DNA of 64,000 bases. Origin: Anabaena sphaerica FACHB-251 (GTDB lineage: Bacteria; Cyanobacteriota; Cyanobacteriia; Cyanobacteriales; Nostocaceae). The notes beneath the pieces were generated by a model. That model was not told where the DNA came from. It made no database searches and saw only the letters and a list, made by a program, of their open reading frames with translations. This document shows, one piece after another, positions 4,752 through 39,673 of this stretch. Position numbers and translations under genes: made by a program. Location of the stretch: positions 1 to 64,000 of the forward strand of contig NZ_JACJQU010000016.1 in the NCBI RefSeq assembly GCF_014696825.1, written 5' to 3'. Numbering within the stretch: position 1 is the stretch's first letter; every line of letters begins with the position of its first letter.

Positions 4752-5525
4752 TCAGGCTGATTTAAAAAATCTAATAATCTCCCGAACATGATCCAGAAAT
4801 TGCCCATCTGTAGAAAGTTGTGCAATGGCATTTCTGGCTTCTCTGGATAGTCGCTCATGTTCAACTTGGTTTGTAGCCCGTAATTCTTCTAAACTAGCAA
4901 TAATACGAGCTAATTCTCGACGAGTTTCTTCATTAAACCTTTGGTTATTTGCTGCCAAAGAATATGGTTGTTCTGGGTTAAGTTGGTCTTCTAAAGATTG
5001 GACTTTTTGCTCTATTTCATAAAATCGGTTACGAAGTTCCAAAATATCTTCACGCGGATAGGTAAATGCTTGACGAATCATTCTTAACCGAGCATATAAA
5101 TATTCGTAGGCGCTAATAGCAGGACGGAGTAAAGTTAATAACAAAGCTGCGCCAGAACTGATATATCCCACAGCACTAATACCAGTAGCAGCTAGGATAT
5201 AAAGAGCAATAGCTGAAACTAAGTGTAAACCAATAGCCAACCAGAGCGATCGCTTGGCTAAAACTTTCACATACTTAACTTGTTTCTCATCTACAGGAAT
5301 ATTTTTTTCTATAGATTCTGCTGCTTCTGCTAAAACTTCCTTAGCTTGAAAATGGACATTCCACGGAACTGTCACAATCACCAATAACCACCAAAAACTA
5401 GCACCACCAATTACCCAGTCGAGAACATTACCTGCGGGTATATGGAACCATTGCAAAACACCAAAAGCTACCAAGAATGTGACTACAATTCCCACAATAG
5501 AACTGATAAAAAAGTTCAAATACAT
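4752..5525 (-). CDS. Membrane protein with C-terminal coiled coil, unknown function
   Basis: 257 residues. Four hydrophobic segments are visible (about residues 4-26, 37-55, 93-112 and 117-140), giving an integral membrane N-terminal half. The C-terminal half is highly charged and predicted helical (LRNRFYEIEQKVQSLEDQ; ELARIIASLEELRATNQ), typical of a cytoplasmic coiled coil. No catalytic motif is seen. It is monocistronic, with about 770 bp of non-coding DNA upstream. It looks like a conserved cyanobacterial hypothetical; possible roles are scaffolding or membrane-associated sensing, with no direct evidence for either. Confidence 0.7.
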   Translation of the reverse strand: MYLNFFISSIVGIVVTFLVAFGVLQWFHIPAGNVLDWVIGGASFWWLLVIVTVPWNVHFQAKEVLAEAAESIEKNIPVDEKQVKYVKVLAKRSLWLAIGLHLVSAIALYILAATGISAVGYISSGAALLLTLLRPAISAYEYLYARLRMIRQAFTYPREDILELRNRFYEIEQKVQSLEDQLNPEQPYSLAANNQRFNEETRRELARIIASLEELRATNQVEHERLSREARNAIAQLSTDGQFLDHVREIIRFFKSA

Positions 5526-6036
5526 TGTTCTCTGTCTCCAGTAAAACTGTTACCTTTATCATGTTCACAAGTTCCCAGTGATACATATATCATTGTGCTG
5601 GTTTTTCTAATAGCACATCATCTTCAAAAAAGATAAGATGTCAAAATTAATCATAATTGTTTCACCAGCAGCTTGATAAAGTGCGGCTATTTGTGGAAAT
5701 CAACAACCCTACTCAGAAAAAGTCAACTCAGCGTTTTATGTATTCCTTGCCTTAACTTGATGGAGACTTGACAATTAATAGCACAAGAGATAGTCTATAA
5801 TTATTGCGGGTGTTTAATCAAAACCTTCTTAATTAATCAAAAATTAAACCCCTGAAAATCAGTAAAAACTTCAGCATCTTGGTAAGTTCGGTTTGGTAAG
5901 TTCGTTCGGGTGTCATCGGAAAAACCCCAAGTCTGAATAGACATGGATTTTATTGGTACGCAGTTTCGGTTAGGGTAACTGAATAGAATCTAGGTTTTAA
6001 TTTGCATAGAATTTAACCTCAATTCTTCATACCCAG

Positions 6037-6294: not shown

Positions 6295-9200
6295 ATGAGC
6301 GAACAAGTTTTTAACATCTCCACACTTAATGGTACAAACGGCTTTACTATCATCAATGGACCGATTCATGATGACCACTTAGGCTACTCAATTAGCAACG
6401 CTGGAGACGTTAACGGTGACGGCATCGATGACATAATTATTGGCGCTCCCCTAGATGATCCCAATGAGGAAAATAATGCAGGAAGCAGCTATGTAGTATT
6501 TGGTACTAACCAAGGCTTTCCTACCACCATAGATATCTCCACCCTAAATGGGATCAACGGCTTTACTCTAATCGGTGGTACAGAAGGTGACGGATCAGGC
6601 CATTCAGTCAGTGCAGCAGGAGATATTAACGGCGACGGTATCGACGACCTAGTGATCGGCGCACCCTTTGCTGACCCAAATGGTGAGAGTTCTGGGGCTG
6701 CATACATAGTATTTGGCAAAAATAGCTTCAGTTCCACCCCTACTATCAACCTTTCCAGTCTTAATGGTACGAACGGTTTTATTATCAACGGACTGGCTGC
6801 GGAAGACGAATTAGGCTATAAAGTCAGCAATGCGGGGGATATCAACAAGGACGGCTTTGATGATCTAATTATCGCCGCTCCCAACGTCTACAGCAATCCC
6901 AACGGTCAACCTGGAAAGGCTTACGTAATATTTGGTCAGAGTAACTTTAATTCCAACTTCGACCTCACCAGTCTGAATGGTAGCAACGCCTTTGTCATCA
7001 ACGGACTGACTGCGAACGACGAATTAGGCTTTGCGGTCAGCAGTGCTGGAGACGTTAATAATGACGGTATTGATGACCTCATTATTGGCGCACATTATGC
7101 CGACCCCAATGGTAGCAGATCCGGGCGGGCATACATAGTATTTGGCAGCGAAGAACAATTTTCATCAACCCTTGACCTCTCCAGTCTTAACGGCAGCAAC
7201 GGCTTTATCATCAACGGTCAAGATGATGAGGAATTAGGCTTCTCCGTTAGCAGTGCAGGGGACGTTAATAATGACGGTATTGATGACATAATTATTGGCG
7301 CACCCTTTGCCCATCCCAATGGCGTAACTCATGCTGCTGGAATCAGTTATGTAGTATTTGGTAAAGATGGTAACTTTGAACCCATCTTAGATCTTTCCAC
7401 CCTTGATGGTAATAACGGCTTTGCCATCAAAGGCATTGGAGAATCTGACAACTCAGGCTGGGCTGTTACTGGTGTGGGAGATGTCAGCGGCGATGGTATC
7501 GACGACTTCATCATCAGCGCCAACAATGCAGATCCCAATGGTGAGAGTTCTGGCCAGAGCTACGTAATATTTGGTAAGAACAACTTTGGGTCCTCCATCA
7601 ATCTTGCCGATATTGATGGCACTAACGGCTTTGTCATCAACGGCAAATCTGTGTGGGATAACTTAGGTCATTCAGTCAGCGGTGGAGGAGATGTAAACGG
7701 TGACGGTATCCGTGACCTAATTGTTAGCGCCCCTTTTGCTGACTCCCAAACTGGGGAAGGCTACGTGATTTTTGGCATCAATAACACCCCCACAGATTTG
7801 TTACTTAGTAACGAGAATGTTGATGAGAATGTTGCAGCCGAAACAGTTATTGGCCAATTTACTACCACTGACCCCAACGCAAAAGTTCAGAAGTTCACCT
7901 ATAGCTTAGTTGCTGGTGCTGCGGATAATGATGCTTTCATTATTGATGGTGATACTCTGAAAATTAAGCAATCTCCAGACTTTGAAACCAAGTCAAGTTA
8001 TCTCATCCAAGTTATAACTACAGACCAAGGTGGACTGTCGTATCAGAAGGAATTGACTATTAATGTTAATGACATCGATGAAACAGGAGGCAATACAGGT
8101 ACAAATACAGCACCGACAGATTTAGCCTTAAGTGCTACTACTGTTAATGAGAATATTACAGACGAAACTGAAATTGGCACATTTATCACTACTGATCTAG
8201 ACACAAGTGATACCCACATCTATAGCTTAGTTGATGATGAAAACTATCCTGATAATGCTGCTTTTATCATTAGTGGCAACAGTCTGAAGATCAAAAAATC
8301 TCCAGATTTTGAAACTAAGTCAATTTACAACATTAGTGTCAGGACAACGGATGCTGGTGGACTCTCTTTTGTAAAAGAGTTGACTATTAATGTTAACGAC
8401 ATCAACGAAAACCAAGAACCTCCAACTGGTGGAAATACCCAAACTCAAGTAGTCAAGATTGGTGATGATGTTGTTCAAATCATCAGCAATAATAGCAAAG
8501 TCAGATTTGAAGCCAACCTTCAAGCCAATAATTCTAATTTGGTTAAGGAATTAGCAGTATTTACCGTTGATGATGCAGATGGTAAAATTAATGGCATTGC
8601 CCCTGGTGAGGATGGATATACTCAGGCCGCATTGGCAAGAAGTAAGGTAGTTTTCTCTGCTATTGCTAAAATTCCTAACCAGTTTGATATCAACAATCTC
8701 AATAAGTTATTAGAATTGAATGCCAATGATAAATTGAGATTCTATATAGTGGAGGATGGAACAAATGATTCTGTAAAAGCTGGGTTTACTCCTCTTACCA
8801 ATGTTATTTTCCCTAGCTTATCAAGCCTCAATATTACCCCGTTAGATGATGATAAGTTCTCTGTTGATTTGGGGAATTTGGTTGTAAATATTAACGCTAC
8901 AGATAAACCCTTATCTCTGGGTACAAATCTACAAGATAGTTCACAAGGAGAAAACATTGATTTACGCAATGTAACTGGTTTAGTGAACGCTGAATTTACA
9001 GTTTACCGAGAAGCAGCATTTGATAATTACGTTGGCTTCTATAAAGTCACTGATGAAACCGGTGGAATTGATATTGATGGTGATGGTAGTGCCGATATCT
9101 TGCCCGGACAAGCAGGTTATACTCAAGCTGCGGTTAATCAGCATTTAAGCAATTTTGGTTTGACTGTTGGTAATGGACAAACAGCGACTTTTAGCAGTAC

Positions 9201-19029: not shown

Positions 19030-19806
19030 ATGACCAACACTATCCTTAATTTCTCAACCGCTTCGGGACACCAAGTTTTAGCAGCAGCAGGTAAAAAATA
19101 TCTACGTCCTGGTGGACGCATAGCTACAGAAAAATTATGCCAATGGGCGAATTTTCAACCAGGTGACAGAGTTTTAGAATTAGCTTCTAGCTTTGGTTAT
19201 AGTGCCATTTCTCTGGTTCAACGCTACCATGTAAAGGTAGTCGGAATAGAAAAAAATCCCGTAAGTGTCGCTAGTGCGCGTGTTAATGTCCGCTTTGCTG
19301 GCTTAGAAAATGAAATTGAAATTATTGAAGGTGATATTTTCCAACTGGATAAAATACCAGGAAAGTTTGATTATGTTTTAGCTGAAGCAATTCTGACCAT
19401 GCAATCTCCACCAGGGAAAGCCAAGCTGTTAACAGAAATTGACAACAAACTGAAACCGGGAGGTAAATTTCTCTCCCATGAATTATTAGCTAATGAGAAA
19501 GAAACAGAAATTAGTGCAGAGTTAGCCAAGGTAATTCGAGTTAATTCTACACCTCTTTCAGCAAGTAACTGGATTCAGGCTTTTACACAAGCAGGATTAC
19601 AAGTACAGAAACATGAAACTGATGCTATGAATTTACTTAATCTGTGGCGAATGTTGCAAGATGAAGGCATTTTCAACACCATGCGGATTTTCTGGAATAT
19701 CTTAACACAGCCTGCTATTCGCCAACGCATTTTAGAAATGCGTCATATTTTCCATAAATATGAGCAAGAACTAGGCTACATCATTATCTGTGCTGTTGTT
19801 GAATAA
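19030..19806 (+). CDS. SAM-dependent class I methyltransferase
   Basis: 258 residues from ATG 19030 (GAGG 10 bp upstream). The open frame extends to 18841, but that part runs through non-conserved intergenic DNA. Motif I is DRVLELASSFGYSA, with Ser-Phe in place of the usual Gly-x-Gly; motif post-I is VVGIEKNPVSV; IIEGDIFQL and FDYVLAEAILTM follow. The C-terminal helical part (NTMRIFWNILTQPAIRQRI) is shared with methyltransferases of the cyclopropane-synthase/sterol type. First gene of a compact three-gene unit with a cupin (38-bp gap) and a 163-residue orphan (21-bp gap). The substrate is unknown. Confidence 0.88.
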   Translation: MTNTILNFSTASGHQVLAAAGKKYLRPGGRIATEKLCQWANFQPGDRVLELASSFGYSAISLVQRYHVKVVGIEKNPVSVASARVNVRFAGLENEIEIIEGDIFQLDKIPGKFDYVLAEAILTMQSPPGKAKLLTEIDNKLKPGGKFLSHELLANEKETEISAELAKVIRVNSTPLSASNWIQAFTQAGLQVQKHETDAMNLLNLWRMLQDEGIFNTMRIFWNILTQPAIRQRILEMRHIFHKYEQELGYIIICAVVE

Positions 19807-19843
19807 TATTTTGATTCTTGACAAACTTTATTATGAGATTGCT

Positions 19844-20170
19844 ATGAGTTCTACTGTCACTCAACTACAAGAACAAATTGAATATCCCCGTGCGGGAGTT
19901 TTCAGCAAAGTGCTGGCAAAAGATACAGCTTGTCAATATACCCTCTTTTGTTTAGCAGCTAACACCGAAATATCTGAACATACCTCTACACGCAATGCTA
20001 CTGTCAATGTCTTGGAAGGTAGAGGTTTACTAACTTTATCAGGGGAAGAAATTAAATTAGAACCTGGAGTTTTTATTTTTATGCCTGCTAATGCCCCTCA
20101 TGCTTTACAGGCTGAATCTAATCTATCATTTCTGCTCACACTTTCTGAAAAATCAGCAGATATTAATTAA
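19844..20170 (+). CDS. Small cupin protein
   Basis: 108 residues from ATG 19844. Single cupin barrel: ISEHTSTRNATVNVLEGRG (motif 1, with His/Thr at ligand positions rather than HxH) and FMPANAPHALQAE (motif 2, with His). This resembles small cupins encoded next to nitric-oxide or redox-stress genes and Crp/Fnr regulators; a Crp-type gene indeed lies 0.9 kb downstream on the other strand. Co-transcribed with the upstream methyltransferase and downstream orphan, given the short gaps. Confidence 0.82.
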   Translation: MSSTVTQLQEQIEYPRAGVFSKVLAKDTACQYTLFCLAANTEISEHTSTRNATVNVLEGRGLLTLSGEEIKLEPGVFIFMPANAPHALQAESNLSFLLTLSEKSADIN

Positions 20171-25460: not shown

Positions 25461-26984
25461 TTATTTTGCCCTGTTAGAGAAATCTGTAAGCAGTCGTGCT
25501 TTTTTCAGGAGGAATTTTAATACAGTTTCTTCCGTAGAAATTATATCTGCTATAGCTTCCATACCGGATTGGATAGTACATTGATGATTAGCAGCAGATA
25601 AGACTAAGCTTTCGGGTTGTATAGTTACCTCATAGGTAGCAGACCCAGAAAAGGAAGTTTTTCCTGGTAACGTTTTTTGTTGGGAAGTGTAGCTGATGAC
25701 ATCAGGAGAAATCTCGCTTACTTCTCCTTTGAGAGTGCCAAAATCTGTATAGGAACAACCAGAAACACGGAGTTTTACATCCTGACCTTTTGTGACCTGG
25801 GGAATATCTGCCGATGTCACCCAAGCTTTGAAAATTAAAGGGGATTCACTGGGGGCAATTTGGGCGACAATATCACCAGAACGCAAAACCTGAGCAGTGT
25901 TACGCAAATTAAGTTCTTGAATAGTACCAGAAACAGCAGCTTTAATGACGGTATTGGCAATTTCTTGATTTACTTGCTGAAGTTCTTGTAAACTGGTGTT
26001 AATTTGTTTTTGGATCTCTAATTTTTGCTGGATTAATTCTTCTCGTTCTCGGTTTAAATGAGCGAGACTAAATTTACCTGTAGCAATTTGGGCGGCAATT
26101 TTTTCCTGGGCAATAATCACATTAGCATTGTTGGGGTTGAGTCCCGTTAATAATGCTTGCTGTCTAGCTTTGGCAGCTTCTACAGCTTGTTGTTGTTGTG
26201 CAATTGCTTCACGGTATTCTTCTACAGTAGCTTGTTGTGATACCAATAATTGTTCTTGTTGTTCAACTGCTAACTGTGCTTCTTGCAGTTGGTCTATAGA
26301 AATAGAACCTGTTTCAGCTAAGGGTTTATACCTGTCGCGCCTTGCCTTAGCTGCTTTAAAAGCCGCCTCGCCGGATTTGACGTTAGCTATAGCTGATTTT
26401 AACTTAATTTTGGTTATTTGCAGTTCTTTTTCGGCTTGTTGTGAATTAGCTTCACCTTCCTGAACTTGAGCAAGAGAACTAATTTTTTGATCTTGAAAAT
26501 CTCTTTGACTGCGGCTGAGTTCTGCTTTAGAGGCAATGATATCACGTTGGTTGCGATCGCTCTCTGCTTGTATTTGTCCATCCAAAGCTCGAATTTGAGC
26601 ATCAATTTGGGATAATTGCAGTTTCGTTTTTTGGATATTTGTTAACAGTTGTTGCTTTTGAATTTGCCAACGATAATCATCAATTTTCGCCAGAACATCA
26701 CCTTTTTTTACTACTTGATTATTTTTTACATTCATACTTTTAATAGTACCTTCTGTTATTGCTTGTACTAAACGTAATTCTCCCATAGGACGCACTGTAG
26801 CAGGAGCTTTGATAATAACTTTGTATTTCAAAATTCCTGAAATTATCATAGCTGCACTAAAAATTGATAACAATGCTAACCCACCAAAAGTAGTCCAACG
26901 ACTAATAGGTGGTAAAAATTCATTAGGACTAGCAGGTGTAAGAAATTCGTAATTACTTCCAGCTTCAATTTTTGTTTCAGACAC
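25461..26984 (-). CDS. HlyD-family membrane fusion protein of the peptide exporter
   Basis: 507 residues. One transmembrane segment near residues 31-53, a biotinyl-lipoyl-like beta domain (VKKGDVLAKIDDYRWQ), then a long coiled coil (about residues 80-340, very Gln/Ala-rich), a second half-lipoyl (AAVSGTIQELNLRNTAQVLRSGD) and a C-terminal beta-barrel. It spans the periplasm linking an inner-membrane ABC transporter to an outer-membrane channel. It is divergent from the precursor peptide gene at 27236, with the peptidase-ABC transporter next; together these form a double-glycine peptide secretion locus. Confidence 0.9.
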   Translation of the reverse strand: MSETKIEAGSNYEFLTPASPNEFLPPISRWTTFGGLALLSIFSAAMIISGILKYKVIIKAPATVRPMGELRLVQAITEGTIKSMNVKNNQVVKKGDVLAKIDDYRWQIQKQQLLTNIQKTKLQLSQIDAQIRALDGQIQAESDRNQRDIIASKAELSRSQRDFQDQKISSLAQVQEGEANSQQAEKELQITKIKLKSAIANVKSGEAAFKAAKARRDRYKPLAETGSISIDQLQEAQLAVEQQEQLLVSQQATVEEYREAIAQQQQAVEAAKARQQALLTGLNPNNANVIIAQEKIAAQIATGKFSLAHLNREREELIQQKLEIQKQINTSLQELQQVNQEIANTVIKAAVSGTIQELNLRNTAQVLRSGDIVAQIAPSESPLIFKAWVTSADIPQVTKGQDVKLRVSGCSYTDFGTLKGEVSEISPDVISYTSQQKTLPGKTSFSGSATYEVTIQPESLVLSAANHQCTIQSGMEAIADIISTEETVLKFLLKKARLLTDFSNRAK

Positions 26985-27235
26985 AGTTTAGGTGACAGGT
27001 GACAAGTTACAGAATTATAAATCTTTTAGTGTATGAGTGTTTAGTGCCTAAGAAAGTGTTGTAATTTGTAGACAGATGATAAAGTGGCACATCAGTGAAA
27101 CCACGCTTATTTACAAGGACATATTCTAATTATCAAAGCATAAAATCAGTAAAAATACACAGAAAAGAGTATCTTTCTCTTTTGATTCTTTTTTGTCGTC
27201 AATTGTTCATCTTTGTATTTTTGAGGTAAATCAAA

Positions 27236-27478
27236 ATGTTCAATCAAGAAACAGCTAAACAACTATTCCTTAATAGCCAACTTTGGGAAGAAATTACTGA
27301 TACTCAAAGTGAAGCAATTAGTGGTGGAAACCCTCCAACCATACAAGAAATAGGAGAAAGAATTTATGAAATAGGAGTAATAGTATCTGATACACCAGGT
27401 TATGATGCAGACAAAACATCCACTATCTTAGGAATTGTTACCACCAAGAATGGAGCTATTAAGAAATTTTTCTCATAA
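27236..27478 (+). CDS. Double-glycine leader peptide precursor 1
   Basis: 80 residues. Leader of 31 residues with QLWEEITDTQSEAISGG: the hydrophobic/acidic helix plus GG cleavage site recognised by C39 peptidases. The predicted exported core is 49 residues (NPPTIQEIGERIYEIGV..., ending AIKKFFS), with no cysteine, so it is not a lanthipeptide or disulfide-stabilised bacteriocin. The leader shares LW(E/A)EITDT with precursor 2. No modification enzyme is nearby. It may be an unmodified bacteriocin or a signalling peptide (inference). GAGG lies 8-10 bp upstream of the ATG. Ended by its own terminator. Confidence 0.85.
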   Translation: MFNQETAKQLFLNSQLWEEITDTQSEAISGGNPPTIQEIGERIYEIGVIVSDTPGYDADKTSTILGIVTTKNGAIKKFFS

Positions 27479-27507
27479 ATTTTAAACATTACCTTTTTGA
27501 AACCGGC

Positions 27508-27546
27508 AAGTCAGTGATTTACTAATAGTAGATACTGACTTTTTTT
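27508..27546 (+). terminator. Intrinsic terminator between precursor 1 and the transporter
   Basis: AAGTCAGT and ACTGACTT form a perfect 8-bp stem with an 18-nt loop, followed by a T-rich tract. It should make a short abundant precursor mRNA, with reduced read-through into the transporter. Confidence 0.75.
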
Positions 27547-27899
27547 GAAAATAGTTATTTAAGGTTTTCAGTTTACTAATTACCAGTTAATTTTTGATAA
27601 TTTCTTAACTTAACATATTTGCTTACTAAGTAAGTCGGCACGAAAAAACCGAGGTATGTAAAAAAAATGTAAAGTTCCTGAAAACCTCTTCCCTCCTGCC
27701 TCCTGCCTTGTCATAACGACAATTTTTAACGCCTACCTACTTATAGCAGGTAAGAGGGTTGAAAGTCTATTATTATATAGCTTTATGATAAAAATTTATA
27801 TCTGATTTATTTGCAATCTGCTGTATATTTTTAACGAGACACTAAGACAAACAAAAGAACATGGTATAAAGTTTTTAACCTTTGATTTTCTAACAGTAG
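27547..27899. other. Spacer upstream of the peptidase-ABC transporter
   Basis: About 350 bp, AT-rich, with one CTCCTGC repeat near 27690. It probably carries the promoter of the transporter gene. No small gene or second precursor was found. Confidence 0.4.
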
Positions 27900-30044
27900 A
27901 TGAAATATCCGATAGTTCTGCAACACAGTGAAGAAGATTGTGGTGCTGCTTGTATTGCTACCATAGCCAAACATTACGGACGTACCTTTACTATTAACCA
28001 TGTGCGGGAAGCAGTGGGTACAGGACAACTAGGTAGTACACTTTTAGGTTTAAAACGTGGTGCAGAAAATCTCGGTTTTAACGCCTGTCAAGTTAGGGCG
28101 ACTCCAGAACTAATAGATCAACTCCATCAAGCACCACTTCCAGCAATTATTCACTGGAAAGGCTATCATTGGGTAGTTTTATACGGTCAAAAAGGTAAAA
28201 AATACATAGTTGCAGATCCCGGTGTGGGTATTCGTTATCTCAGCCGTGAAGAACTAATCACAGGTTGGGTAAATCGGATCATGCTGTTATTAATACCTGA
28301 TGAAATTCGTTTTTATCAGCAAGAGTCTGATCAGGTTGGTGATTTCAGACGTTTTTTAGCCCGTGTTTTACCTTATCGTCATATTTTAACTGAGGCAATT
28401 TTCCTAAATTTAGTCATGGGAATATTATCTCTAGCTTCACCTTTTTTAATTCAAATTCTTACAGATGATGTTTTAGTTAGAGGAGACACAGATTTACTAA
28501 CTACAGTGGGTATTAGTGTGGTTCTTATGAACCTTTTTAGTAGTACTTTAAAGTTAGTACAATCTAATATGATTGCCAATTTTGCCCAACGTTTAGAATT
28601 AGGACTAATTTTAGATTTTGGTAGACAAATCCTGCGACTACCCCTAACTTACTATGAATCACGCCGTAGTGGTGAAATTGTCAGCCGTTTACGTGATATT
28701 CAAGAAATTAATCAGCTAATTTCCCAAGTTGTACTGCGTCTTCCCAGCCAAACTTTTATTGCTGTGGTTTCCTTGGGATTTATGTTATTTTACAGTTATA
28801 AATTACTGGTTTTAACTATTTTGTCTTCTTTATTAATGACTTGTTCAACAGTTATCTTTCTTCCTACCTTACGGCGAAAAATCAGTAATGTTTTAATCAA
28901 AGAAGCTGAAAACCAAGGGGTTTTAGTAGAAACTTTTAAAGGAATGCTAACTTTAAAAACGGCTAACGCTGAACCACAAGCTTGGGAAGAAATTCAAACC
29001 CGTTTTGGGAGTTTGGCAAATCTCACATTTAGCACTATTCAAATTACTATTATTAATAATGTATTTTCTGGGTTAGTTTCCGGTTTAGGTAATCTGGCTA
29101 TTTTGTGGTTTGGTAGTAGTTTAGTTATTAGTAAAGAATTGAGTATAGGTCAATTATTGGCTTTTAATGCAATGAATGGTAATTTCATCGCTTTAATTAC
29201 TACTGTAATTGATTTTATAGATAAATTTGCTCGTGTGCAAACTGCAACCCAACGAATTACAGAAGTCATTGATAGTACCCCAGAAGATGAAAATCAACAA
29301 CGTAAACCAGATGCAAAAATTCCTGAAGATGCTAATATCATCTGTACTAATGTGAATTTTCACCATGCAGGAAGAACCGATTTATTAAAAGATTTTTCTA
29401 TTAATATTCCTGGGGGTAAAGTTACAGCTTTAATTGGTAAATCTGGTTGTGGAAAAAGTACCCTAGTTAAATTAATTGCTGGTTTATATCCCTTACAATC
29501 TGGTAGTATTAGATTGGGAATTTATAACCAAAAAGATTTATCTTTATCTAGCATTCGTCAACAAGTAATCTTAGTTCCCCAAGAACCACATTTTTGGAGT
29601 CGTTCGATTTTAGATAATTTCCTTTTTAGTCATCCTTATGCGACTTTTGAACAGATTGTTAAAGCTTGTCAAATTGCTGGTGCTGATGAATTTATTAATG
29701 ATTTACCAGATAATTATCAAACGGTTTTAGGAGAGTTTGGGGTGAATATTTCTGGTGGACAAAAACAAAGATTAGCTTTAGCTAGAGCTATTGTTACAGA
29801 CCCACCTATTTTAATCTTAGATGAATCTACTAGCGCACTTGACCCTATATTAGAAACCCAAGTTTTGGATAAACTTCTATATTATCGTCAGGGTAACACT
29901 ACAATTATGATTAGTCATCGTCCCAGAGTGATTAGACGTGCTAATTTTATTATTATGTTGGATAAAGGACAGTTGAAAATAGAAGGAACTCCAGAAGATT
30001 TACAAGCTGAATCTGGAGAACATTTAGATTTTTTAATTCCTTAA
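27900..30044 (+). CDS. Peptidase-containing ABC transporter (C39, bacteriocin-type)
   Basis: 714 residues. The N-terminal C39 cysteine peptidase carries C14 (EEDCGAACIA), H90 (GYHWVVLYG) and D106 (ADPGVG); it cleaves after Gly-Gly of leader peptides. Six-helix transmembrane domain at about 150-430. The nucleotide-binding domain has Walker A GKSGCGKST (about 512-520), signature SGGQKQR (about 617) and Walker B ILILDEST (about 637). Acts as cleavage-and-export pump in the inner membrane together with the HlyD protein. Flanked by two GG-leader genes that are its obvious substrates. Confidence 0.95.
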   Translation: MKYPIVLQHSEEDCGAACIATIAKHYGRTFTINHVREAVGTGQLGSTLLGLKRGAENLGFNACQVRATPELIDQLHQAPLPAIIHWKGYHWVVLYGQKGKKYIVADPGVGIRYLSREELITGWVNRIMLLLIPDEIRFYQQESDQVGDFRRFLARVLPYRHILTEAIFLNLVMGILSLASPFLIQILTDDVLVRGDTDLLTTVGISVVLMNLFSSTLKLVQSNMIANFAQRLELGLILDFGRQILRLPLTYYESRRSGEIVSRLRDIQEINQLISQVVLRLPSQTFIAVVSLGFMLFYSYKLLVLTILSSLLMTCSTVIFLPTLRRKISNVLIKEAENQGVLVETFKGMLTLKTANAEPQAWEEIQTRFGSLANLTFSTIQITIINNVFSGLVSGLGNLAILWFGSSLVISKELSIGQLLAFNAMNGNFIALITTVIDFIDKFARVQTATQRITEVIDSTPEDENQQRKPDAKIPEDANIICTNVNFHHAGRTDLLKDFSINIPGGKVTALIGKSGCGKSTLVKLIAGLYPLQSGSIRLGIYNQKDLSLSSIRQQVILVPQEPHFWSRSILDNFLFSHPYATFEQIVKACQIAGADEFINDLPDNYQTVLGEFGVNISGGQKQRLALARAIVTDPPILILDESTSALDPILETQVLDKLLYYRQGNTTIMISHRPRVIRRANFIIMLDKGQLKIEGTPEDLQAESGEHLDFLIP

Positions 30045-30195
30045 CTATGAAAATATAGCAAATTTGCGTTTTTATTTAGAAAACACATCCTACAATTATT
30101 TATGATAAAAATTAGTTTTTTTGATAGTTATATTTACGGAAAGTCAGATATTATGTTTGTTATTGAGATCTGTTTTAAAACAAGGTAAAAACATC

Positions 30196-30462
30196 ATGAC
30201 TTCTCAAAACCCCCAAGAATCAAATCTCTGGGCAGAAATTACTGATACGGAAGCTGCACAGGTAGTAGGTGGATATACTGCTGAACCGGCATTTGTGGCA
30301 GTACCTAGCCAAAAACCAGATGGTGTGATTCCATCAGGTAAAGTTCTTGGATTTAATGAATTTATACCTGGTATCTTTGGTGGTGAGCAGAAAGGTAAAT
30401 CAGGTACAACACTCTACTATCCTTTGAATGAAGATGGTCCTGTTTTTGAACTTCCTCTGTAG
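30196..30462 (+). CDS. Double-glycine leader peptide precursor 2
   Basis: 88 residues from ATG 30196 (AAGG upstream; an open frame to 30121 is probably untranslated). The 26-residue leader NLWAEITDTEAAQVVGG ends in GG; the core is 62 residues (YTAEPAFVAVPSQKPDG..., ending DGPVFELPL), Pro/Gly-rich and Cys-free. The cores of precursors 1 and 2 are unrelated, so the transporter appears to accept different cargo through a common leader. 150 bp downstream of the transporter on the same strand. Confidence 0.82.
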   Translation: MTSQNPQESNLWAEITDTEAAQVVGGYTAEPAFVAVPSQKPDGVIPSGKVLGFNEFIPGIFGGEQKGKSGTTLYYPLNEDGPVFELPL

Positions 30463-38782: not shown

Positions 38783-39322
38783 GTGTCTACTGTTTCCTAC
38801 TGGACATCTCCCGATTTTTCTCAAGCTGCCTTTATCGCAACCAACGCCGTTGTTGTCGGCTCAGTCAACATCGCAGCAGAGGTAAGCATTTGGTATGGTG
38901 CAGTGGTTAGGGGGGATGTAGAACGCATTGAAATTGGCGAATGCACAAACATTCAGGATGGAGCCATTTTACATGGTGATCCTGGTCTGCCAACAATCTT
39001 AGAAGATCATGTCACTATAGGCCATCGTGCTGTGGTACATTCTGCCCATATTGAACGTGGGAGTTTAATAGGCATTGGCGCAATCATTCTCAATGGAGTC
39101 CGAGTTGGTCATAGTAGCATCATTGGCGCTGGTGCAGTAGTAACCAAAGACATCCCACCATTTTCCCTAGTAGTAGGCATTCCTGCCAAAATCGCCCGTC
39201 AACTCACAAACACCGAAGCAGCAGAACTCATCGAACACGCCGAAAAATACCATAAATTAGCCCTAGTTCACGCCGGCAAGGGGACTGATATTGGTTTTCG
39301 ACAGGTGACAGGTGACAGGTGA
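38783..39322 (+). CDS. Gamma-class carbonic anhydrase / left-handed beta-helix protein
   Basis: 179 residues from GTG 38783 (VSTVSYWTSPDFS), the start that matches the fold; the frame is open to 38705 but upstream residues are not protein-like. Hexapeptide repeats (GAILHGDPG, DHVTIGHRAVVHSAHIERGSLIG) carry the His ligands of gamma-carbonic anhydrases, GHRAVVH and an upstream His. Such proteins interconvert CO2 and bicarbonate or act as acyl/assembly factors. The C-terminal FRQVTGDR and stop come from the CTGTCAC repeat. Confidence 0.88.
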   Translation: MSTVSYWTSPDFSQAAFIATNAVVVGSVNIAAEVSIWYGAVVRGDVERIEIGECTNIQDGAILHGDPGLPTILEDHVTIGHRAVVHSAHIERGSLIGIGAIILNGVRVGHSSIIGAGAVVTKDIPPFSLVVGIPAKIARQLTNTEAAELIEHAEKYHKLALVHAGKGTDIGFRQVTGDR

Positions 39323-39430
39323 CAGGTGGCAGTAAGAAGGGAATAGGGAGCAGGGGAGCAGGGGAGCAGGGGAGAATAAATAACCTCCTGACTCCTGACT
39401 CCTGCCTCCTGCCTTCTGCCTTCTGCCTCC
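39300..39430. repeat. Compound short tandem repeat tract
   Basis: Successive STRR types: GTGACAG (about four units, inside the end of the upstream gene), GGGGAGCA (three to four), CTCCTGA/CTCCTGC/CTTCTGC (about seven). It separates the carbonic anhydrase from psbY. Confidence 0.85.
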
Positions 39431-39547
39431 TGATCAACTTCATCATTCTTTACACTTCCCCTTGGAAAAATACCCCACTTCAGATAAAAATAAAAATTGA
39501 TAACTGTTGACAAAACTTTAATTTTTACATAACAGAGGTTTCTAGAT

Positions 39548-39673
39548 ATGGACATCGATACCCGTGTAGTCATCGTTTTAGCACCACTAGCCATAGCAGC
39601 TGGTTGGGCTGCTTTTAATATTGGTGCTGCTGCTATTAGACAAGTACAAAACTTTTTGAACAAAGAAGCTTAA
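39548..39673 (+). CDS. psbY: Photosystem II protein Y
   Basis: A 41-residue, single-span thylakoid protein at the periphery of photosystem II near cytochrome b559. Sequence [20 protein letters not shown]... continues with [17 protein letters not shown], matching the PsbY pattern (hydrophobic helix, AGWAxFNIG). A good Shine-Dalgarno AGAGG (39534-39538) lies 9 bp before the ATG. The gene stands alone between STRR tracts. Identification is strong despite its size. Confidence 0.93.

Follow-up and report, generated by a model that had tools for sequence, protein, structure and literature searches.

The window (the whole 64,000-nucleotide stretch analyzed here, on contig 16 of a 6.19 Mb genome in 44 contigs) carries a peptide export locus that, by gene content, is a further member of the cyanobacterial group III bacteriocin clusters. 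We consider it fairly probable that this is a type I export locus of the group III kind whose plain cargo acts extracellularly, on the filaments of the producer itself. The new point here is that its exporter belongs to one clade common to microviridin and plain cargo; such a clade was not found in the accessible parts of the literature searched, which does not prove its absence from that literature. The locus type is ordinary, and the apparent switch of cargo between it and its microviridin-exporting relatives makes it a useful new case.

Gene content and layout of the locus

Exporters with a C39 peptidase domain cut the leader of their precursors after a GG pair and export the core. Leader cleavage and core export by such exporters are described in the accessible text of two sources (PMC6363468, PMC10986499). 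The window locus spans 25461-30462, in the order hlyD (-), pepA (+), exporter (+), pepB (+), and the coordinates and parts reported for it in the earlier note are correct:

25461..26984, minus strand: hlyD-type periplasmic adaptor, 507 aa, divergent from the rest (Pfam HlyD_3, E 3.3e-20)
27080..27091, plus strand: conserved box TAAAGTGGCACA, 145 bases upstream of pepA, a possible regulatory site
27236..27478, plus strand: pepA, GG precursor, 80 aa; leader 1-31, core 32-80 (49 aa), Cys-free; orthologues in genomes G228 and G071
27508..27545, plus strand: terminator-like hairpin with U-tract directly 3' of pepA (-14.3 kcal/mol, z -4.37)
27900..30044, plus strand: C39-peptidase ABC exporter (short-type PCAT), 714 aa, assigned by Pfam, catalytic residues and solved-chain matches
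30196..30462, plus strand: pepB, GG precursor, 88 aa; leader 1-26, core 27-88 (62 aa), Cys-free; homologue in genome G130

The exporter contains Peptidase_C39 (2.8e-34), ABC_membrane (3.8e-32), and ABC_tran (2e-29) domains. Its C39 domain covers residues 2-130 and is of the short type, having no N-terminal CAP_ED extension. Residues Q8, C14, H90, and D106 are present, as are a Walker A motif at 513, ISGGQ at 617, and ILILDE at 637. Solved chains are matched over residues 2-706 (e.g., 4ry2) and 10-708, and their annotations are "ABC-type bacteriocin transporter" and ComA. The HlyD adaptor and the C39 transporter with C14/H90/D106 that had been claimed are all found by Pfam and residue check. 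The adaptor scores 3.1e-44 against TIGR01843, yet falls below the curated cut-off of that model, and it is 74% identical to the HlyD of the G228 locus. For pepB, the mechanical open reading frame opens at TTG 30121, and the ATG at 30196 has an AAGGT box before it. Both cores are acidic (pI 5.0 for pepA and 4.5 for pepB), with average masses, computed from sequence for the unmodified cores, of 5298.9 and 6585.4 Da.

Modification enzymes were sought in the surroundings and in the genome. Pfam was searched at E 1e-5 with 20 flanking ORFs lying in the interval 12.9-43.9 kb (two ORFs of more than 100 aa in this range, 19790-20170 and 39268-39663, were left out), and 17 of them had a match. LanC, YcaO, and radical-SAM families were absent from these flanking ORFs, and the claim that no lanthipeptide, radical-SAM, or cyclodehydratase gene adjoins the locus thus holds among the 17 ORFs named by Pfam. 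No peptidase-less second ABC transporter, LanM, SurA, or S8 protease was recognized among the 20 either. In this the cluster is like the group III clusters, as it is in its short C39-ABC exporter with HlyD and GG precursors close by; unlike them, its cargo sequences match no family. The accessible part of the survey that defined group III (Wang, Fewer, and Sivonen, 2011; PMC3140520) lists 19 such clusters and 74 precursors in them, of which 40 belong to no family with a name, and this bears out the earlier statement that such loci are known in cyanobacteria. A methyltransferase-like protein lies 5.6 kb from the locus and an M16-family peptidase 4 kb from it; nothing ties either to the locus. 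Inspection of the flanking ORFs recognized no immunity gene beside pepA or pepB.

Neither pepA nor pepB matched Pfam or NCBIfam at E 1. In the genome, LanC-like models gave no match (control over the cut-off in 1 of 14 genomes), YcaO models gave none (controls over the cut-off in 5 of 14), and the MvdD family had no match at E 0.001, its control being weak, in 1 of 14 genomes, and over the cut-off in none. The ATP-grasp ligase pair had no tblastn match in the window, the TxKxPSD motif does not occur there, and PFFARFL is absent from the pepA and pepB leaders. Radical-SAM matches numbered 23 in the genome and zero in the window. A known RiPP class was rejected for the families searched, since MvdD, LanC-like, and YcaO searches were all empty; for these families neither a known modified class nor a remote modification operon, the two findings that the earlier note had said would overturn its reading, turned up. 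The core of that reading, that two cargos without apparent modification share a leader and have an exporter dedicated to them, is supported by these empty searches and by the lack of Pfam and NCBIfam matches.

The hairpin behind pepA lies in the stretch of some 420 bases between the end of pepA and the start of the exporter. None of 200 shuffles was as stable. It is absent from the list of the consensus scan, and no comparable hairpin was found 3' of pepA in G228 or G071. A hairpin with a U run ahead of the exporter points to a separate transcript for pepA. The box TAAAGTGGCACA occurs exactly in 8 of 194 loci, every one a copy of the window or G228 pepA place, with a near-match at G071; in the window taken alone, its single match is no more than chance. 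Consensus promoters in the window were fewer than expected (11 versus a shuffle mean of 15.2), and Rfam at gathering thresholds gave no match in the window.

Leaders and histories of the two cargo peptides

The two leaders resemble each other more than chance allows. A loose leader pattern matched twice in the six frames of the window, compared to a mean of 0.01 and a maximum of 1 in 100 dinucleotide shuffles, and the exact pattern LWxEITDT..GG matched twice in the window and never in the same shuffles. A chance leader match was rejected by these counts, and the pair of small genes with a common leader described in the earlier note is real in this sense. In the 14 residues that precede GG, seven agree between the leaders, and 33 of 48 bases agree in the DNA; four codons in a row (GAA ATT ACT GAT) are identical. 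The cores are unrelated, as had been stated for these Cys-free segments of 49 and 62 residues: when the pepA core is shuffled 2000 times, 1647 of the shuffles reach or exceed its real score against pepB.

Leader similarity was scored over the 14 residues before GG. It is 0.58 between pepA and pepB, and at most 0.41 in the 24 pairs formed by these two leaders with 12 leaders of three paralogous loci. In a comparison of 47 loci, closer exporters go with more similar leaders (r 0.573, 0 of 2000 permutations), a correlation that is partly plain common descent. The pepB leader is unlike microviridin leaders (0.07-0.19); values for the pepA leader are 0.38-0.54, within what is seen at loci outside the clade (n=102; mean 0.30, maximum 0.59). 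Both sets of values count against a simple story in which the leader is an address tag.

The search for this leader through the whole genome, proposed earlier as a count of further cargo, used a DNA pattern that found pepA alone; pepB-like leaders were missed because only E, K, or Q was allowed at the third leader residue. One orphan precursor with a similar leader was also seen, first as an E 0.74 match. It lies on contig 15 of the same genome (L194:5546-5890, minus strand). Its leader is LYEEINDKEMDQIRGG, its core is built of QYPGG repeats, and its tail contains Cys; no exporter is among the ORFs listed around it. It is a possible third cargo of the same leader type.

Among 217 Nostocaceae genomes, pepA is present in three, and in each it lies at this exporter. 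G002 gives one more match (E 4e-4), which covers little beyond the leader. The leader is kept (20 of 31 residues versus G228, 20 of 27 versus G071) and the core is not (6 of 44 versus G228, 19 of 49 versus G071), with an exporter 89% identical to that of G228. Compared directly, the window and G228 cores score no better than 954 of 2000 shuffles, so they are recognizable as kin only via G071, whose core is near neutral (pI 6.4).

The history of pepB is different. It has one clear homologue in the 217 genomes, in G130 (57% over 76 aa, E 8e-21; open frame 77 aa), which carries a leader of its own, LWADMNDLEAAQIIGG; the ORFs listed for the surrounding 20 kb include no C39 exporter. Because of that separate leader, pepB does not appear to be a plain borrower of the pepA leader; at most, its EITDT part may have become alike here. 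The tie of pepA to this exporter in three genomes, and the second occurrence of pepB without an adjoining exporter, had escaped the earlier reader.

Plasmid-borne cargo was considered and rejected: tblastn of plasmids found nothing for pepB and, for pepA, a single chance match (E 0.7). A fold reading from AlphaFold was also set aside, with models that were too poor (pLDDT 40 for pepB from two sequences; pLDDT 57 for pepA from three, with a helical core). Literature search, which works by text and not by sequence, returned nothing recognizable on either cargo. A group of Nostoc proteins of about 190 aa without Pfam match (L182-L187) has a first half that resembles the pepB core and a second half that, by eye only, is like a subtilisin propeptide.

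Microviridin and plain cargo in one exporter clade

An exporter of this type is found at E 1e-250 in 202 of the 217 Nostocaceae genomes. Seventeen loci, including the window, have exporters at least 73% identical to that of the window, and the next listed is at 69%; all 16 other clade loci and one 69% locus were examined. Twelve of the 17 carry microviridin, three carry pepA (the window, G228, and G071, the last being the same contig as Nostoc linckia FACHB-104), and two carry an Arg/Ser-rich peptide. That the closest relatives of this exporter are mostly microviridin exporters was also missed by the earlier reader. Eleven microviridin precursors were found whole by scan, with PFFARFL and TxKxPSD, and the twelfth locus (G168, the same contig as L052) has one TxKxPSD motif and a leader match. 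In NCBIfam, the one precursor checked scores above the microviridin cut-off (5.4e-23), and a single Cys occurs in 7 of the 11 cores. The third cargo type, at L174 and L176 in two genomes of about 10-12 Mb, is an 18-aa Arg/Ser-rich core behind an ELTDxQ-type GG leader, encoded upstream of the exporter.

Class II microviridins are often found with C39 exporters, and some with HlyD, according to the accessible parts of the relevant reports (PMC13039773, PMC7823629, PMC8939145). Their loci (PMC13039773, PMC7823629) are like the window locus in having an exporter and adaptor of one clade with its own; the 12 clade microviridin exporters are 74-79% identical to the window exporter. The hlyD gene is divergent from the exporter in 10 of the 12, which are all those where the hlyD region is covered. 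Unlike them, the window has no ATP-grasp ligases, PFFARFL, or TxKxPSD, and pepA lies on the strand of the exporter, whereas microviridin precursors lie on the opposite strand. At least one ATP-grasp ligase adjoins 10 of the 12 microviridin loci (in one of them cut by the contig end), and none is present within 14 kb in the other two; none was found in the stretches examined at the three pepA loci. The accessible part of the 2011 group III survey (PMC3140520) does not treat microviridin loci as a group.

The exporter tree has 32 rows, and in it the 17 loci are a single clade (100/99). Inside this clade the 12 microviridin loci group together (100/99), and the window and G228 are sisters (100/100); cargo parsimony over the 17 rows gives one change. 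In the HlyD tree, 15 rows group at 100/100 and the 10 microviridin rows included at 93/85, with G071 outermost (89/91). Since both trees give one inner microviridin branch, microviridin genes probably took over a plain-peptide exporter once on this lineage in related strains, and the window would keep the older use; we infer this direction from the trees. Loss of microviridin in the window's ancestor, which the p-AU values allow, is less simple, as it takes at least two losses versus one gain. Branches just outside the clade have weak support, and several branch orders outside the microviridin group remain compatible with the AU test (p-AU 0.253 for the three pepA loci as one clade, 0.225 for the microviridin loci with the window and G228).

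Nine of the 14 outer rows of the exporter tree have a non-microviridin GG candidate (L046, L047, L057, L061-L063, L064, L065, L099), and no convincing cargo was seen in three. The ligase pair is present in two, L060 (with microviridin cores) and L107. Because L060 branches outside the clade, the association of microviridin genes with such exporters apparently arose more than once. At L057, in a Symploca MAG (5215-5601), the leader of a GG precursor has FLEGQN before LWSDLPD..GG and recalls a microviridin leader; its core is not microviridin.

We tentatively suggest a wider picture, in which microviridin genes took over an exporter of plain peptides and so altered the kind of chemistry that this lineage ships. 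This would have been possible because the leader half that binds the exporter acts as a portable address in front of any core, and pepB would be a travelling cargo that joined this exporter and whose leader turned EITDT-like beside pepA. A natural set of close exporters with plain and microviridin cargo suits tests of C39 leader specificity by swaps of leader halves.

Role of the cargo

Cargo at related exporters gives some indication of function. The genome has seven C39 domains. Six transporters, including the window's own, match the window exporter below 1e-100. Among the remaining five, three are near relatives of it (61-67% identical), and each of these adjoins its own HlyD and GG precursors. 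Locus C2 has four such precursors, of which three are near-identical copies in tandem; C3 has three, and C5 has about five, including one that contains two Cys. Two of four paralogue cargos checked were over the cut-off of the CTB family bacteriocin (NF038167), which puts cargos of two of the three paralogous exporters in that family. The family is like the window cargo in being GG cargo of the same exporter type, and unlike it in that pepA and pepB have no match even at E 1.

A strict pattern applied to 85 related loci, which missed microviridin precursors, gave 39 cargo candidates at 28 loci, and 33 of the 39 are Cys-free. The suggestion that Cys-free, unmodified cargo is the mark of an uncharacterized family is not supported by this count. 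The locus type, moreover, was catalogued in 2011 (PMC3140520), and the accessible parts of two reports describe the cargo of one such exporter as secreted and forming biofilm matrix (PMC4997328, PMC9981879). That cargo, EbfG1-4 of Synechococcus elongatus, consists of small GG proteins secreted with the help of the C39 exporter PteB. The window locus is likened to it by description, as small GG cargo with a C39 exporter; the amyloid motif described for EbfG1-3 was not seen by eye in pepA or pepB. When 10 hand-picked candidates were put to Pfam, one matched beta/gamma-crystallin (4e-11, over the cut-off), two were likely bacterial SH3 domains (3e-4 and 4e-4, under the cut-off), and seven had no match. 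The label "bacteriocin" on many cyanobacterial GG peptides therefore tells little of function. The crystallin and likely SH3 domains stand behind GG leaders at L118:5347-5691 and at L124:5418-5723 and 6379-6672, small folded domains as cargo.

In the mechanism we propose, pepA and pepB would be made as precursors, the C39 domain would bind the LWxEITDT...GG leader and cleave it behind GG, and the acidic cores, bare and 49 and 62 residues long, would pass through HlyD and an outer-membrane channel encoded elsewhere. On the producer's filaments the cores would most probably serve as matrix, surface, or signal rather than as killing peptides. Such a role outside the producer's own cells is favored over a toxin because of the EbfG1-4 matrix, the crystallin and likely SH3 cargo, the acidic cores, and the lack of a recognized immunity gene.

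The usual name of such loci implies a bacteriocin pair, with pepA and pepB antimicrobial against related cyanobacteria. Fast change of the pepA core beside a well-kept leader and exporter fits an arms race, its presence is patchy, and a Nodularia cluster of CTB type is induced by phosphate shortage and read as allelopathic in the accessible part of that report (PMC9846622). However, no immunity gene was recognized by inspection beside either cargo, both cores are acidic and match no NCBIfam or Pfam family, and the one such exporter for which experiments were consulted has cargo that builds matrix, which makes antimicrobial action rather unlikely. We judge it unlikely that the peptides are intercellular signals that this filamentous cyanobacterium exports and that neighbors then sense or re-import. 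HetC, another cyanobacterial C39 exporter, is needed for heterocyst development (PMC10986499, accessible part), leader types differ between exporters of the genome, and pepA has its own hairpin end and conserved upstream box; the cores, however, are long and strongly variable between strains, and no sensor kinase or receptor is among the 17 of 20 flanking ORFs named by Pfam.

Modification of the cores by an unlinked enzyme (radical-SAM, oxygenase, or unusual graspetide ligase) may occur in the clade, because two microviridin loci have no ligase nearby, and the genome holds radical-SAM proteins in number. For the window cores it is distinctly unlikely, given leaders without PFFARFL, cores without TxKxPSD, and the empty genome searches. 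The resemblance of the pepB core to the N-terminal domain of the Nostoc proteins of about 190 aa raises the idea of an extracellular domain that interacts with proteases. Its Smith-Waterman score is 72 versus a shuffle maximum of 51 (2000 shuffles), and hhalign gives P 0.0012; for the G130 homologue the Smith-Waterman score is 45, which 8 of 2000 shuffles attain. The match was, however, picked as the best of 217 genomes (E 0.009-0.03 per genome), the hhalign probability is only 20%, the pepB model is unusable, and Pfam and PDB searches with the Nostoc proteins gave nothing above noise, their propeptide likeness being by eye, so we hold this idea to be highly doubtful.

Tandem arrays of GG precursors were seen at two other exporters. 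In the genome of the window, three near-identical tandem precursors lie beside a paralogous C39 exporter (L191:11197-13395, minus strand), and the one checked in NCBIfam was over the CTB cut-off. In a Calothrix MAG, five tandem precursors, four of them closely similar, adjoin a C39 exporter (L087:3134-4835).
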